Shown piece after piece: positions 7,327 through 13,085 of a stretch of 64,000 bases of DNA; within the stretch, counting starts at the first letter, position 1, and every line of letters starts with the position of its first letter. The notes below the pieces were generated by a model. The model had not been told where the DNA came from, did not search any database, and was given only the letters and a program-made list of their open reading frames with translations. Both the position numbers and the translations under genes were made by a program. Source of the DNA: Geothrix sp. (GTDB lineage Bacteria; Acidobacteriota; Holophagae; Holophagales; Holophagaceae); assembly GCF_030219325.1 (NCBI RefSeq), contig NZ_CP126625.1, forward strand, positions 186,001 through 250,000. The letters run 5' to 3'.

Positions 7327-8289
7327 ATGACCAGAATGCATGCCCCTTCCCGCACCCCGGATCCGGAAGACGACCTGACGGATCTGGCCAAGCTGACGCG
7401 CCTGTTGCTGGCCCATGCCCCCTACGACGGGACCTTCGACCTCCGGTTGCCCGGCGTCCATGTATCCAAGGCTTCCCGCACCGACAAGGAGATGCACCAC
7501 GCCGTGATGCAGCCGGCCCTGTGCATGGTGGCCCAGGGCGCCAAGCGGGTCATCCTCGGGAAGGAGATCTATGAGTACGACGCCTCGCGCATGCTGGTCT
7601 ATTCCGTGGATGTCCCCATCACCGCCCAAGTCACCCAGGGCAGCCTGGATGCGCCCTACCTTGGCCTTCGGCTGGACCTCGACCCTGCCCGCATCGCCGA
7701 CCTGACCGCCAAGGTCTACCCCTTGGGCCTGCCGAAGCGGGAAGACGGCCACGCGATCTGCGTGGATCAGGTGGATGACCACGTGATCAACGCGGTAGTG
7801 AGGCTCATGGGGCTGGCGTCCCAGCCTGGGGAAGCCGACCTGCTGGCGCCGCTGGTCATGGACGAGATCCTGATCCGGCTGTTGAAAAGTTCGCTGGGCC
7901 TGCGGCTCGCGATGATCGGCCAGGAGGAGAGCCGGATCCAGCAGGTCTCCAAGGCGGTCTCCTGGGTGCGCTCCCACTTCGACCAGCCCCTGGACGTGGA
8001 GCGGCTCGCCACCCTGGTCCACATGAGCCCGTCGTCCTTCCACCAGCACTTCAAGGCCATCACCTCCATGAGCCCCCTGCAGTACCAGAAGGCCCTGCGC
8101 CTGCAGGAGGCGAGGCGCCTCATGCTGCTGACCATGCTGGATGCGGGCACCGCCAGCCGCCGCGTGGGCTACCAGAGCCCCTCGCAGTTCGCCCGGGAGT
8201 ACGGGCGGTACTTCGGCGACGCCCCCACCCGGGACATCGCGCGGCTGCGCGAGCAGGGCGGGGTGCCGGGGCCGGTGGCGGTGGACTGA
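7327..8289 (+). CDS. AraC family transcriptional regulator with AraC_N (cupin) domain
   Basis: 320 residues from the ATG at 7327; an ATG at 7336 is also possible and neither has a strong ribosome site. Residues ~40-190 are an AraC_N-type cupin sensor (HHAVMQPALCMVAQGAKRVILG). The C-terminal ~100 residues contain two helix-turn-helix motifs: LDVERLATLVHMSPSSFHQHFK, split around the recognition helix, and AGTASRRVGYQSPSQFAREYGR. Regulators of this type often control adjacent aldehyde or quinone reductase genes, as YqhC does in E. coli, so the aldo/keto reductase and mdaB are the obvious targets. A 234-base gap separates it from mdaB and probably holds its own promoter. Confidence 0.9.
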   Translation: MTRMHAPSRTPDPEDDLTDLAKLTRLLLAHAPYDGTFDLRLPGVHVSKASRTDKEMHHAVMQPALCMVAQGAKRVILGKEIYEYDASRMLVYSVDVPITAQVTQGSLDAPYLGLRLDLDPARIADLTAKVYPLGLPKREDGHAICVDQVDDHVINAVVRLMGLASQPGEADLLAPLVMDEILIRLLKSSLGLRLAMIGQEESRIQQVSKAVSWVRSHFDQPLDVERLATLVHMSPSSFHQHFKAITSMSPLQYQKALRLQEARRLMLLTMLDAGTASRRVGYQSPSQFAREYGRYFGDAPTRDIARLREQGGVPGPVAVD

Positions 8290-8297
8290 GGGGCGGG

Positions 8298-9740
8298 TTA
8301 GGGCAGCGAGGGCAGCTCGATGCCGGCCATCTTCTGCACCATGCGCACCACCTGGCAGCTGTAGCCGAACTCGTTGTCGTACCAGACGTACAGCACGACG
8401 CGGCTGCCCTCGGCGATGGTGGCCAGGGAATCCACCACGCCCGCGTGGCGCGAGCCCACGAAGTCGCTGGAGACCACTTCGGGCGAGTTGGTGTAGTCGA
8501 TCTGGTTCTGCAGCGGCGATTCCAGGGACATGCCCCGCAGGTAGCCGTTGAGCTCGGCGGCGGTCACGGACCGGCCCAGCTCCAGGTTGAGGATGGCCAG
8601 GGACACGTTGGGGGTGGGCACGCGGATGGCGTTGCCGGTGAGCTTGCCGCCCAGCTCGGGGATGACCTTGGCCACAGCCTTGGCGGCGCCGGTCTCGGTG
8701 ATGACCATGTTCAGCGGCGCGCTGCGGCCCCGGCGCGAGGCCTTGTGGTAGTTGTCGATGAGGTTCTGGTCGTTGGTGTAGGAGTGGCAGGTCTCGATGT
8801 GGCCGTGCAGGATGCCGTAGCGGTCCTGCAGGGCCTTCAGCACCGGCACGATGGCGTTGGTGGTGCAGCTGGCCGCCGAGAAGATCTGCTCGTCGGCGGT
8901 GATCAGGTCGTGGTTCACCCCGGCCACCACGTTGGGGATGTCCCCCTTGCCCGGCGCGGTCAGGATGACCTTGGCGATGCCCGGGGCCTGCAGGTGGCGG
9001 CTCAGGCCGGCGCGGTCCCGCCACTTGCCGGTGTTGTCGATGAGGATGGCGTTGCGGATGCCGTACTGGGTGTAGTCCACGCCCTCGGGGCTGTCCGCGT
9101 AGATGATGCGGATCAGGTTGCCGTTGGCGATGATGGCGTTTTCTTCCTCGTCGATGGTGATGATGCCGTTGAAGGGGCCGTGCACCGAGTCGCGGCGCAG
9201 CAGGCTGGCCCGCTTGAGCAGGTCGTCGGCGGCGCCCTTGCGCACCACGGCGGCCTTGAGGCGGAACTTCTCGCCGCTGCCGGCCTTCTCGATGAGGATG
9301 CGGGCCAGCAGGCGGCCGATGCGGCCGAAGCCGTAGAGCACGATGTCCTGGGGCTCGTCCAGGATGGGGCTGCTGCCCGTGTGGACGCTGGCCAGCTCCC
9401 GGCGGACATACTCGTCCGCCGACAGGCCGCCGCCCTCGGTGGTGAAGTGGAAGGTCAGCTTGCCCAGGTCGATGCGCGCCGGCGCCAGGTCCAGCTTGCA
9501 GATCGCCTTGAGGAGGGGAAAGGAATCCAGCACGGACAATTCGTCATCCAGGATCTGCCGGGCGAAGCGGTGGGCCTTGAGGATGTCGATGGCCGTGCTG
9601 TTGACCAGGGAGCGCCCATAGACGCTCACCACGATGTTCTTGTCCCGGTAGAGGCTGCCGAGGATGGGCAGCATGCGCTCCGCCGTGGCCTCCTGGGCCT
9701 GCCAGTCCTTGAGGTAACTATCCTGCTTGGAGGTATTCAT
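8298..9740 (-). CDS. gap: Glyceraldehyde-3-phosphate dehydrogenase, long (GapB/Gap2-like) form
   Basis: 480 residues, clearly longer than the usual ~335. An N-terminal extension of ~125 residues precedes the NAD-binding domain (IVLYGFGRIGRLLARIL). The catalytic cysteine is in SAASCTTNAIVP, with ETCHSYTNDQN and WYDNEFGYSCQVV also present. Long GAPDHs of this type occur in Pseudomonas and Vibrio and are linked there to gluconeogenic flux. The ATG at 9740 is preferred over 9764 because a GGAG ribosome site lies between them. The gene converges with the AraC gene (stops 8 bases apart) and borders the AT-rich island on its 5' side. Confidence 0.92.
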   Translation of the reverse strand: MNTSKQDSYLKDWQAQEATAERMLPILGSLYRDKNIVVSVYGRSLVNSTAIDILKAHRFARQILDDELSVLDSFPLLKAICKLDLAPARIDLGKLTFHFTTEGGGLSADEYVRRELASVHTGSSPILDEPQDIVLYGFGRIGRLLARILIEKAGSGEKFRLKAAVVRKGAADDLLKRASLLRRDSVHGPFNGIITIDEEENAIIANGNLIRIIYADSPEGVDYTQYGIRNAILIDNTGKWRDRAGLSRHLQAPGIAKVILTAPGKGDIPNVVAGVNHDLITADEQIFSAASCTTNAIVPVLKALQDRYGILHGHIETCHSYTNDQNLIDNYHKASRRGRSAPLNMVITETGAAKAVAKVIPELGGKLTGNAIRVPTPNVSLAILNLELGRSVTAAELNGYLRGMSLESPLQNQIDYTNSPEVVSSDFVGSRHAGVVDSLATIAEGSRVVLYVWYDNEFGYSCQVVRMVQKMAGIELPSLP

Positions 9741-10196
9741 GATGGGCGATCTCCGGGTGGCCATTCAGCTGTCTGAACCGCGATTCAAGCCAAACATCCA
9801 TTTTGCCCTGGCATGGAAAGGGCCACAAGGAATGGTCTCCAAGTGGACCTCCGTCAACACCAGGGGTCCGGGGAGGACCGGCGCAATGGGAACCCTGGTG
9901 CCGGTCACAGGGCCACGGCCTCGTCATCTGTTGCCAGAGGCGGTCAGAGCGATGGGGTCAGGCCCGCGGATGAGCGTTGACGTTCGAATCGAAGATGACA
10001 AGTCCATGCGGTATGATTTTCGCGGACATTCCATTGAAAAGCAGCCATCCGTCTACCATCTACATTTGTGGAATACGCTCCTCGAATGAGAAATCGTTCG
10101 ATGGTTGTAGAACGGGTGTTGTCGTTACTCCCTTCCACACAATTTTGCCAACCTCCTTTTTGCAGAAGCTCTAGTTAGGCCTCGAGGAGTCACTCA
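9741..10196. other. Intergenic: gap promoter side and left border of AT-rich island
   Basis: About 455 bases without a convincing gene. The left half is high-G+C and should hold the gap promoter. From about 9985 the composition becomes visibly AT-richer and stays so to about 11820. Open frames here (9727-10089 +, 9977-10174 +, 9944-10138 -) have no family resemblance or good ribosome sites. GTTAGGC at 10174-10180 fits the integron core GTTRRRY and lies just before the first cassette-like gene. No matching RYYYAAC partner is evident upstream, and no integrase gene is present. Confidence 0.5.
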
Positions 10197-10772
10197 ATGG
10201 CTAACCAGTCAATTGCGGCAACCGCAACAGTGATAGCGGCCCTATTTGCAGCGGGCGTTTCATTTCTCCACCTGACGCTAACAAAGGAGCAAAAAATTTC
10301 TGATTTCAGACAGGCTTGGATCGACGCACTACGTGAAGATCTTGCCACTTTTTTTTCGGTCTCTCGAGCAATGGCCCGGGCCACAGAAGAGCAACGCCTT
10401 CCTGAAGCGCAGAAGGCAGGAATGAAATTCGCCTTCAGCGAGGATCAGGTTCGCGAGTACCGTCTCACTGTCGCCCAGACCTATTACAGAATCAAACTCC
10501 GTTTGAATTCTGGTGAGGCGGAACACATCCAACTCCTCTCTCTAATGGACCAAGCGATTGCTGCCCAGATCGCTGCAGCGAAGGGAGAATCAGATGGGAG
10601 GAATACCCTTCCTGCTATTGAATCTGCTGTGGCCTACTCAAGACCACTGCTGAAATCTGAATGGGATCGGGTTAAACGCGGTGAACCTAATTTTCGGGTA
10701 GCGAGAAACTGGATACCTCCAATTCTAGTAATACTGGCTATCGCATTCTGTTTAATTTTGCAAAATGTTTAA
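10197..10772 (+). CDS. Hypothetical membrane protein with N- and C-terminal transmembrane helices
   Basis: 191 residues. A hydrophobic helix at ~7-27 (ATATVIAALFAAGVSFLHL) is followed by TKEQKISDFRQAWIDALREDLA. This resembles a widespread family of small uncharacterised membrane proteins with the motif K(I/V)S(D/E)FRQAWID. A second helix closes the protein (PPILVILAIAFCLILQ). The central ~130 residues are helical and soluble. Upstream is GAGGAGTCACTCA before the ATG. The gene is much AT-richer than the chromosome and ends in a TAA that forms part of a candidate attC core, as expected for an integron cassette gene. The function is unknown. Confidence 0.8.
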   Translation: MANQSIAATATVIAALFAAGVSFLHLTLTKEQKISDFRQAWIDALREDLATFFSVSRAMARATEEQRLPEAQKAGMKFAFSEDQVREYRLTVAQTYYRIKLRLNSGEAEHIQLLSLMDQAIAAQIAAAKGESDGRNTLPAIESAVAYSRPLLKSEWDRVKRGEPNFRVARNWIPPILVILAIAFCLILQNV

Positions 10773-10848
10773 CGACTTTCACTCTGATTTGTCGACACCG
10801 CTTAGCTCCATGGTGCATGCGGGGTCCGGTTAGATTCACCCGTTAGGT
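10767..10848 (+). repeat. Candidate integron attC site
   Basis: GTTTAAC at 10767-10773 fits the R'' core RYYYAAC and contains the stop codon of the preceding gene. GTTAGGT at 10842-10848 fits the R' core GTTRRRY. They span 82 bases, within the normal attC range. The ends pair as TAAC:GTTA. A second short pairing (TCTGA against TTAGA) lies 9-10 bases inside, like L''/L'. Inner pairings CACC/GGTG and CCGC/GCGG could close the stem. The next gene starts 6 bases after R'. Complementarity is only partial, as is usual for attC, so this needs a structure search. Confidence 0.45.
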
Positions 10849-10854
10849 GGCCCG

Positions 10855-11370
10855 ATGCCTCATTCCAAGATTTTAAAAGCAATTCGAACCTACGCTCATG
10901 CGTACGCTGAACTTCAACACCTGCAGGACACTCACCCAAGCATTCCTGGTGGAGATCAAAAAACAGGTTGTATCGGCGAATACTACGCCTACCTCTACTT
11001 AGCCAAAATTCATGGCGTGGACAAACTGCGCTACGGCAGTCACAGCGAGAAGGGGTGGGACATTGAAATTGCAGTCGATCCCCCGGTTCGAATCCAAGTT
11101 AAAACCGTTTCGGGGTTCTCAAAAACGAGAACTATCTCGCCCATCCACAGGGGGTGGGATCAGCTTTTCATCGTGTATCTGAGTAGGGAATTGAACCCTG
11201 AAGGGTTCTGGATCATCGAAAACGCCAATATTTTTGGCAAGTCCGACCAGCTTACTGGTTTGAAGTGCTGTCACCCATCGAAGCCCTCAACGGGGTCTGC
11301 ATCACTTCCATTTGGTGAGAATCGAGTTAACAAACTACAAGAAGCAATTGAACATGCCCTAGGTGCCTGA
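10855..11370 (+). CDS. Small protein with PD-(D/E)XK nuclease-like motifs
   Basis: 171 residues with no signal or membrane segment. GEYYAYLYLAK (~42-52), then KGWDIEI (~66-72) and RIQVKTV (~79-85) follow the order E...GxD...(Q)xK of the PD-(D/E)XK restriction-endonuclease fold, with D68 and Q-V-K as putative metal-binding and catalytic positions. The length suits a single minimal nuclease domain. The call is motif-level inference, and the protein could equally be an inactive fold member. It is AT-rich, starts six bases after a candidate attC core, and belongs to the cassette-like series. Nuclease domains are common in cassettes and defence islands, but no partner gene is recognisable. Confidence 0.75.
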   Translation: MPHSKILKAIRTYAHAYAELQHLQDTHPSIPGGDQKTGCIGEYYAYLYLAKIHGVDKLRYGSHSEKGWDIEIAVDPPVRIQVKTVSGFSKTRTISPIHRGWDQLFIVYLSRELNPEGFWIIENANIFGKSDQLTGLKCCHPSKPSTGSASLPFGENRVNKLQEAIEHALGA

Positions 11371-11376
11371 CCTTCG

Positions 11377-11421
11377 TTTCAACGCAGACCCACCTGCATT
11401 GCCTTCCGCTTAAGGTTGATC
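11377..11421 (+). repeat. Divergent, short attC-like site
   Basis: TTTCAAC (11377-11383) and GTTGATC (11415-11421) each differ from the attC cores RYYYAAC/GTTRRRY at one position. They pair through TCAAC:GTTGA. GCAG/CTGC pair inside with a six-base loop. At 45 bases it is shorter than accepted attC sites. It lies between two tightly spaced cassette-like genes, 6 bases after one stop and 2 bases before the next ATG, which is the only reason to list it. Confidence 0.25.
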
Positions 11422-11423
11422 CC

Positions 11424-11654
11424 ATGATGAGCCCCAAGGACTGTGGAATCATATTGGTAATCCCCTTTGCCGTAGCCCTGCTCTACTTCCTTATCCTTTT
11501 GGTGCTCGCTTTGATTAAGCCCGAATGGGCGCAAATGGAATTAGCTCGGCCAAGACCGAAATCGCGTCCGGGGCATGGAGTAACTCGAATGATCGCTTAT
11601 ACGCTTGGGCTATGGGCCATTCATCGATTCGTGTCTTTGGGTAAGAAAAAGTAA
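11424..11654 (+). CDS. Small hypothetical membrane protein
   Basis: 76 residues. A strong transmembrane helix at about residues 8-31 (IILVIPFAVALLYFLILLVLA, split at its ends) is followed by a basic, proline-rich linker (RPRPKSRPGHG). A weakly hydrophobic second segment (MIAYTLGLWAIHRFV) and a lysine tail follow. No family is recognised. It is the third of three AT-rich small genes in the same direction with minimal spacing. After its stop, ACCTAAC at 11673-11679 fits the attC R'' core. No GTTRRRY partner is found before dinB, so the array end looks eroded. Confidence 0.65.
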   Translation: MMSPKDCGIILVIPFAVALLYFLILLVLALIKPEWAQMELARPRPKSRPGHGVTRMIAYTLGLWAIHRFVSLGKKK

Positions 11655-11830
11655 TTTGACCAACCTTGCAGCACCTAACCCTCCACTCAATTCGGGCCCG
11701 GCCTGCATCGTCTTCCACTCTCGATCAGCTTCCGACAACCTCGAGCCCGCTCACCGCCCTGTTGCAGACGTGACCACTTCGCCTTGTTCGCGCGGAATCC
11801 AATTTGTTCTGAATCCTCACCGGGCCAAGC

Positions 11831-12997
11831 CTAGGTGAGATCCATCGGATCGAAGAGCCCTGGGGGTGGAACCTCCACTGGCCTGGTGGCTCCGGAATTC
11901 GCGTGGTCGGCCTGGACCAGCGCTCCCGCCCGTACCCCCAGCAGGCGCAGCTTGCGGGTCAGGTCCACGCGCTTGAGGCAGGTGCGGGCGGCCTCGCGCA
12001 GGCGCTCGGCGTCGGCGATGGGGGCGGGCAGGGTCTGGTCCCGCGTGACGGTCTGGAAGTCCTCGAAGCGCAGCTTGATCCCGACGCTGCCGGCCAGGAC
12101 GCCCTTGCGGGCCAGGTCCTGGGCCAGCCGCTCGCAGAGGTCCAGGAGGATGCGGGACAGCGCCTCGCGGTCCTGCTTGGCGTGGAGGTCCCGCTCGAAG
12201 GTGGTCTCACGGCTGATGGACTTGGGCTCCCGCGACAGCGTGAGGGGCCGGTCGTCGCGGCCGTGGGCGGCCTCGTGCAGCCAGGCGCCGTAGCTCCGCC
12301 CGAAGTGTTCCACCAGCCCGGCGGGATCGGCCCTGGCCAGCTCCCCGATGGTGCGCAGGTGGAGGCCTTCGAGCTTGGCGGCGGCCTTGGGCCCGATGCC
12401 GTTGATGGCGCGGCAGGGCAGGGGCCAGATGCGGGCGGGCAGGTCCTCCAGGCCCAGGATCGTGAGGCCGTCGGGCTTCTCCAGCTCCGAGGCCAGCTTG
12501 GAGAGCAGCTTGTTGGGCGTGATGCCGATGGAACAGCTCAGCCCCGTGGCCTGGCGGACCGCCGCCTTGAGGCGCAGGCCCAGCTCCCGCGAGGTTCCCG
12601 GAACATCTGTCAGGTCGAGGTAGATCTCGTCGATGCCGCGGTCCTCGATGAGCGGCGCCACCTCGGCCACGGCGGCCTTGAAGGCCCGCGACACTCGCGC
12701 GTAGGCCTCGAAGTGGGCGGGCAGCAGGATGGCCTCCGGCGCCAGGGCCGCGGCCTTCATGAGGCCCATGCCGCTGTGCACGCCGAAGGCGCGGGCCTCG
12801 TAGGTGGCCGTGGTGGCCACGCCCCGGCCCGCGTAGTCCTTCAGCCTCGGGTAGGGCTGCCCCGGCACGGTTGCCACGGGCCGCCGCCCGCCCACCACCA
12901 CCGGCAGCCCCTTCAGCTCGGGATGCTCCAGCAGCTCCACCGACGCGAAGAAGGCATCCATGTCCAGGTGCGCAATGCGCCGCGGCTCACCGGACAC
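11831..12997 (-). CDS. dinB: DNA polymerase IV (Y-family translesion polymerase)
   Basis: 388 residues from a GTG at 12997, preceded by GGGGAG; no ATG lies close enough upstream. It opens with RRIAHLDMDAFFASVE, whose LDMDAFFASVE holds the first catalytic Asp. YEARAFGVHSGM (steric/nucleotide region) and EDRGIDEIYLDLT (catalytic acidic pair) follow. The helix-hairpin-helix INGIGPKAAAKLEGL and the little-finger domain (SISRETTFERDL onward) complete the family. It copies past lesions in the cytoplasm with low fidelity and is usually SOS-induced; no LexA box was recognised. It lies downstream of a methyltransferase gene (gap 88 bases) and its 3' end borders the AT-rich island. Confidence 0.92.
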   Translation of the reverse strand: MSGEPRRIAHLDMDAFFASVELLEHPELKGLPVVVGGRRPVATVPGQPYPRLKDYAGRGVATTATYEARAFGVHSGMGLMKAAALAPEAILLPAHFEAYARVSRAFKAAVAEVAPLIEDRGIDEIYLDLTDVPGTSRELGLRLKAAVRQATGLSCSIGITPNKLLSKLASELEKPDGLTILGLEDLPARIWPLPCRAINGIGPKAAAKLEGLHLRTIGELARADPAGLVEHFGRSYGAWLHEAAHGRDDRPLTLSREPKSISRETTFERDLHAKQDREALSRILLDLCERLAQDLARKGVLAGSVGIKLRFEDFQTVTRDQTLPAPIADAERLREAARTCLKRVDLTRKLRLLGVRAGALVQADHANSGATRPVEVPPPGLFDPMDLT

Positions 12998-13085
12998 CCG
13001 GGCTCCCCGGCATAACGCGAGGCCCCGCCCGTTCAGGGCGGTGGCCGGCGTGGGTGGCGTGGGCGCGGTGCACGGGTTCCCGCCT

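Follow-up and report, generated by a model that had tools for sequence, protein, structure and literature searches.

The chromosome of this Geothrix strain is a single contig of 3.73 Mb, and the window, the whole stretch of 64,000 nucleotides that was analysed, corresponds to C1:186001-250000; positions given without a contig or locus name are those of the window. Between a GAPDH-type gene and the gene for DNA polymerase IV (dinB) lie three small genes and three sequences related to integron attC sites (Table 1). The first-pass annotation had described this region, at 10174-11680, as three AT-rich genes in one direction packed between core-like motifs. The genes indeed have a G+C content of 48-49%, compared with 65% (9001-10000) and 73% (12001-13000) in the flanking kilobases, and all three are still open reading frames. 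The low G+C sets in at about 10000, ahead of the array's left edge. That edge, the GTTAGGC core noted ahead of gene 1, was present as annotated, while the right limit had to be moved outwards because the third attC continues to 11796.

Table 1. Positions of the cassette array, its neighbours and the attI motifs found elsewhere on the chromosome
Feature	Position	Strand	Description
GAPDH-type gene	8298-9764	-	left neighbour of array
Array left edge	10174-10180	+	core GTTAGGC, taken as start of cassette 1
Gene 1	10197-10772	+	ORF of 191 aa; helical, hydrophobic at N- and C-ends
attC remnant 1	10767-10848	+	R'' GTTTAAC, R' GTTAGGT; right half present (10792-10847), left arm mostly lost
Gene 2	10855-11370	+	ORF of 171 aa
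attC remnant 2	11365-11410	+	left half only; R'' GCCTGAC (11365-11371) with gene 2 stop TGA
Gene 3	11424-11654	+	ORF of 76 aa; looks like small membrane protein
attC remnant 3	11673-11796	+	full length; R'' ACCTAAC (11673-11679), R' decayed to GCGCGGA
DNA polymerase IV gene (dinB)	from 11831	-	right neighbour of array
attI motifs, own genome	C1:714083, 1970074, 2165220, 2604829; edges of L020 and L023		left edges of six other clusters

Sequence and folding of the attC remnants

The sites were compared with the consensus of the genome's own attC family and with a covariance model, R1, made from an alignment of 56 of the 81 sites of that family, none of them from the window. The search with an attC model that had been recommended for the locus gave a strong match at remnant 3 (59.5 bits, E 8.8e-15, 11673-11796) and weak ones at remnants 1 and 2. 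Remnant 3, which begins with the ACCTAAC annotated after gene 3, also agrees with the consensus at 76% over 118 positions (11674-11790). Remnant 1 is the GTTTAAC...GTTAGGT pair annotated between genes 1 and 2; it measures 82 bases, as reported, against about 124 in the genome's family, and the gene 1 stop codon (TAA, 10770-10772) was correctly placed inside its R''. It agrees with the consensus at 75% over 56 bases (10792-10847), found only in a search at word size 5, and with R1 at 18.8 bits (E 0.003, 10800-10848). Between genes 2 and 3 a divergent core pair had been proposed; GCCTGAC is there and opens a left-half attC that agrees with consensus positions 1-47 at 79% (E 5e-5), while the right arm is missing and an R' is not recognisable. 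The R1 score of remnant 2 was 14.6 bits (E 0.045, 11365-11463), no better than that of 7659-7754, outside the array.

Bare RYYYAAC..GTTRRRY pairs, 45-160 bases apart, occur four times per strand in the 64 kb; core pairs are thus not rare by chance and the motifs alone are no evidence, whereas likeness to the genome's own attC family is. Only remnant 1 has both an R'' of the form RYYYAAC and an R' of the form GTTRRRY (10767 and 10842). Raw consensus scores on the + strand were 58 for remnant 3, 26 for remnant 1 and 25 for remnant 2, and the maximum in 1000 second-order Markov shuffles of 10100-11850 was 19. On these comparisons remnant 3 is the only convincing model match, and remnants 1 and 2 are assigned, as putative attC derivatives, by sequence similarity.

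All three sites are damaged. The integron integrase needs the folded bottom strand of attC, and the bottom-strand hairpin that had been expected of the sites failed to stand out from shuffled sequence at any of them: 45 and 34 of 200 shuffles folded as well as remnant 1 (two cuts), 17 of 200 as well as remnant 2 and 138 of 200 as well as remnant 3, and none of the three formed an attC hairpin with paired R and L boxes. A live site folded for comparison (L019 8613-8736) gave -24.6 kcal/mol for the bottom strand versus -19.7 for the top, with an R-box helix and an imperfect stem. Remnant 3 retains 11 of 21 model pairs and the 56 model sites retain 17-21 (42 of them all 21), a comparison that leans towards those sites because the 21 pairs were derived from them. 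Without a bottom-strand hairpin at any of them, the sites are taken as decayed; the array has thus probably been retired and its genes have become locked.

CALINs, clusters of attC sites lacking an integron integrase, are called by IntegronFinder 2 in its default setting from at least two attC sites found by covariance model (PMC9024848). With R1 the window yields one clear site, one weak site (E 0.003) and one that scores at the level of noise (E 0.045). The locus resembles the CALINs of IntegronFinder in its attC-derived sites between small same-strand genes and in having no adjacent integrase, and differs from them in having sites decayed to the point where one alone is a clear covariance match, as judged with the own-genome model R1 rather than with that of the program (PMC9024848).

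Distribution and predicted functions of the three genes

In the nearest relative found, the metagenome-assembled genome (MAG) MS_R2_30, both flanking genes are present in the same order and genes 1-3 are absent between them, so that the three genes are not found at this locus in all relatives. The syntenic interval holds a 309-aa CAAX-protease-like gene instead; R1 has no match there at E<=0.01, and the best match to the consensus looks like chance (E 0.07). With this interval occupied by another gene, no empty insertion site was found, and a second candidate (G012) was rejected because its two flanking genes are in swapped order. If insertion was site-specific, an empty GAPDH-dinB site would join ...GCAGAAGCTCTAG to CGCGGAATCC....

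The distribution of the genes was followed in 47 same-genus genomes, own included. Gene 1 was found in its own genome and, as a 38% homologue, in G038, where it takes the first cassette position behind an attI-like site and has a 146.1-bit attC after it; further homologues (34.7%) lie on Azospirillum plasmids. Its predicted structure (mean pLDDT 73.2) had no match in the PDB at E<=0.001, its sequence gave five chance-level PDB matches only, and PHROGs returned one weak family of unknown function. A sub-cut-off Pfam match to SLATT_1 (E 0.006) was dropped, as it is missing in the homologue.

Gene 2 has no Pfam match. Among the same-genus genomes it was found in its own and, as one weak match (34%), in G046, and among 395 other genomes of the phylum there was one weak match. 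The G046 relative matches Pfam PDDEXK_5 at 17.6 bits, below the cut-off of 26.1; together with the shared KGWD...QVKT stretch, this suggests that gene 2 is perhaps PD-(D/E)XK nuclease-like. Its AlphaFold2 (AF2) model was too poor for a structure search (mean pLDDT 43.5), its sequence had no match in the PDB, and it was not found in viral contigs. The closest sequence found for it, 57.7% over 94%, belongs to an ORF without annotation on a megaplasmid of Vibrio sp. THAF190c (NZ_CP045339.1), whose record is almost bare of annotation in this region; gene 2 thus crosses phyla. A direct-repeat search, run without a Vibrio attC model, found no attC-like repeat series around this ORF. Nearby are two pairs of direct repeats that reach 40 bases or more (193 and 64 bases, 88%); the 193-base copies (L160 5346-5538 and 7252-7444) flank this ORF together with its neighbour. 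A likeness of gene 2 to cassette L018_15 was weak and antisense and was dropped.

Gene 3 had no match in the 46 other same-genus genomes or in plasmids, and none of genes 1-3 occurs in another array of their own genome. PADLOC matched none of the three; NCBIfam gave nothing for gene 2 and only far sub-cut-off matches for genes 1 and 3. Rfam had no match at the locus, the one match in the window being the tmRNA.

The integron system of the chromosome

As a query, the window locus had 45 further matches in its own genome, 40 on remnant 3 and five on remnants 1 and 2. Eight other clusters, taken from the genome outside the window, are built on one attC family of about 124 bases running from GCCTAAC to GTTAGGC; together they hold 81 sites, partial ones included, and 79 intervals interpreted as cassettes, which have a G+C content of 51%. 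R1 matched (E<=0.001) in 46 of the 47 same-genus genomes, so that the family is genus-wide. The same arrays also contain a second attC form that differs in its centre, CCGCAAGCGGCC (L017 10552-10677, L018 6944-7070), and L022 5842-5953 looks similar.

The integron integrase profile TIGR02249, which also matches below cut-off in 14 of 14 control genomes, had eight matches in the genome. One is above the cut-off (463 versus 265 bits; C1:714363-715301), about 0.5 Mb from the window array, and none of the eight lies in the window, which bears out the annotated lack of an integrase there. The best named relative (93%) is in the MAG Holophagaceae MS_R2_30; for Geothrix species the figure is about 76-81%. 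Two same-genus genomes share their match coordinates with named Geothrix genomes (G008 with G. fermentans, G007 with G. oryzisoli), which points to a Geothrix host. The suggestion that an integrase and further cassettes be sought in the same genome was thus borne out, and the chromosome outside the window carries a large integron system that is probably active. Past the far end of array L018 lies a tyrosine recombinase gene (G000 C1:1982776-1983573). Its two TIGR02249 matches (95.7 and 64.4 bits) are both below cut-off and leave out profile positions 182-236. G043 has a comparable pair at C4:632937-633734, and at G055 C1:774208-775153 an integron integrase appears as two sub-cut-off matches with a stop inside one.

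Six of these eight clusters (L017, L018, L019, L020, L021 and L023) have the motif CGTC(C/T)AAT...GTTAGG at their left edge; it is absent from the left edges of L022 and L024. A 19-base form is exact at four of the six edges and has no match within three mismatches elsewhere in the genome, where the reversed pattern, as a control, gave one match. At 18 of 27 named integrase loci (L044-L070) it is found some 143-506 bases ahead of the point where the integrase match starts, on the opposite strand (distances by subtraction, at the 18 loci looked at), and because of this position before integrase genes it was taken as attI. The forward motif occurred 15 times in 369 kb of same-genus loci and the reversed motif not at all; four forward occurrences in the integrase loci of other organisms (L071-L121, 650 kb) show that the motif is not unique to Geothrix. 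The six clusters headed by attI have 21, 20, 22, 4, 8 and 2 sites, and the two without have 2 each.

Only one of the six attI-headed arrays, L017, adjoins the genome's single integrase. Six cassettes recur in different arrays (L017, L018, L019 and L021) at 99.8-100% identity; four of these are common to L017 and L019, where their order differs, and one cassette is duplicated within L018. Upstream of its attI, L019 has sequence like the start region of the integrase gene beside L017, with no integrase there; judged by this likeness, it is perhaps what is left of a duplicated integron after the loss of intI.

Three further genomes were considered, with arrays picked among the matches listed plus the gene 1 match, and the counts are of arrays looked at rather than of whole genomes. 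G002 has four attI-headed arrays (L154-L157) and G038 three (L144, L162 and L163), each with one integrase above cut-off. G053 has two integrases above cut-off and the attI motif only at the array beside one of them (719039); the motif is missing from the two arrays at 1195-1207 kb and 2677-2687 kb, and the locus of the second integrase has neither attC nor attI motif. We lean slightly towards a distributed integron, in which one integrase would serve several attI docking sites and carry cassettes from one to another in trans; the window locus would then be a retired node with locked genes. The results from G053 and the occurrence of the motif in other organisms run against this reading.

In Xanthomonas, as in Geothrix, cassette clusters are scattered over the chromosome at a distance from the integrase; these dispersed CALINs of Xanthomonas are said to be mobilisable in trans (PMC12444791). 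Six of the eight Geothrix clusters are headed by attI, a feature that the available text of that study does not mention for the dispersed Xanthomonas arrays. In the open-licence literature no report was found of several attI-headed arrays served by one integrase. IntegronFinder does not detect attI outside class 1 integrons (PMC9024848), so the several-attI pattern may exist elsewhere unnoticed.

Origin and fate of the window array

The stretch 10174-11796 is very probably a remnant of a cassette array of the host's own integron system, with attC sites that have since decayed; it was probably assembled in trans by the remote integrase. Three cassettes, each a gene with its 3' attC, would have been brought together here by the one integrase of the chromosome. 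The sites would then have decayed: site 1 would have kept little of its left arm, the right arm of site 2 would have gone, and site 3 would have lost its R' core and nearly half of its stem pairs; with the bottom-strand fold gone, the cassettes would stay put while their frames remain open, along with any benefit that the genes may bring. A cassette origin is favoured by the low G+C, as in the other cassettes of the genome, and by the gene 1 homologue that is a cassette in G038; against it stand the weak R1 scores of remnants 1 and 2, the detection of remnant 1 at word size 5 only, the lack of any exchange seen with the live arrays, the lack of an empty site, and the Vibrio relative of gene 2 with no attC-like series around it. 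The annotated CALIN candidate holds as an integrase-less cassette array, with its R1 match and its integrase elsewhere, and is not supported in respect of functional attC sites. It is very probably a real CALIN, decayed, and of a kind already known: CALINs have been proposed to be degraded integrons (PMC9024848) and are described from archaea (PMC9668308), and chromosomal attC sites of the same phylum, the Acidobacteria, have been modelled, so that integrons are known in it (PMC8352920).

That the three are ordinary horizontally acquired genes with core-like motifs around them by chance is very improbable. Bare core pairs do occur at chance frequency, and the Vibrio relative of gene 2 sits outside any visible cassette array, but the 59.5-bit match at 11673-11796 contradicts such an origin, as do the shuffle test and the cassette location of the gene 1 homologue. 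It is also improbable, though less so, that the sites still function and the array is a live CALIN: both core motifs are kept in site 1, and attC sequences in general vary widely, yet no bottom strand folds better than shuffles at the 5% level (17-138 of 200 as good) and site 3 has only 11 of its 21 pairs.

Two candidate origins were weighed for the array. The cassettes may have been inserted at a secondary chromosomal target, like attG (described with the attC core consensus in PMC12901181), rather than at attI, a possibility to which we give limited credence. The left edge, G|TTAGGC, has no attI before it, nor an attC, the best R1 score there being 1.6 bits (10147-10180), and the consensus alignment of remnant 3 ends at position 118, a G that directly precedes the crossover. 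Simple decay of R' would account for that end equally well, however, and R1 aligns the site through to 124; the joined target, CTAG|CGCGGA, misfits the 5'-GNT-3' motif given for secondary sites (PMC10127599), and an empty site was not seen. We are similarly doubtful about the other origin, in which an array once headed by attI would have lost this site along with some of its cassettes. Six of the eight other clusters are headed by attI, and the low G+C from near 10000, ahead of the left edge, suggests that something may be missing; against this, a profile built from the six own-genome attI sites found no match at the left edge, and CGTC(C/T)AAT...GTTRRG is absent from the window with up to five substitutions allowed.

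Whichever way the decayed cassette array arrived, the locus is a small example of such an array at the end of its life, with three differently damaged attC sites and genes that are still open. Its setting matters more than the locus itself: six attI-headed arrays, a single integrase, and near-identical cassettes across arrays. If the distributed arrangement is true, multiplication of attI, besides loss of the integrase, would explain many of the arrays that programs label as CALINs.
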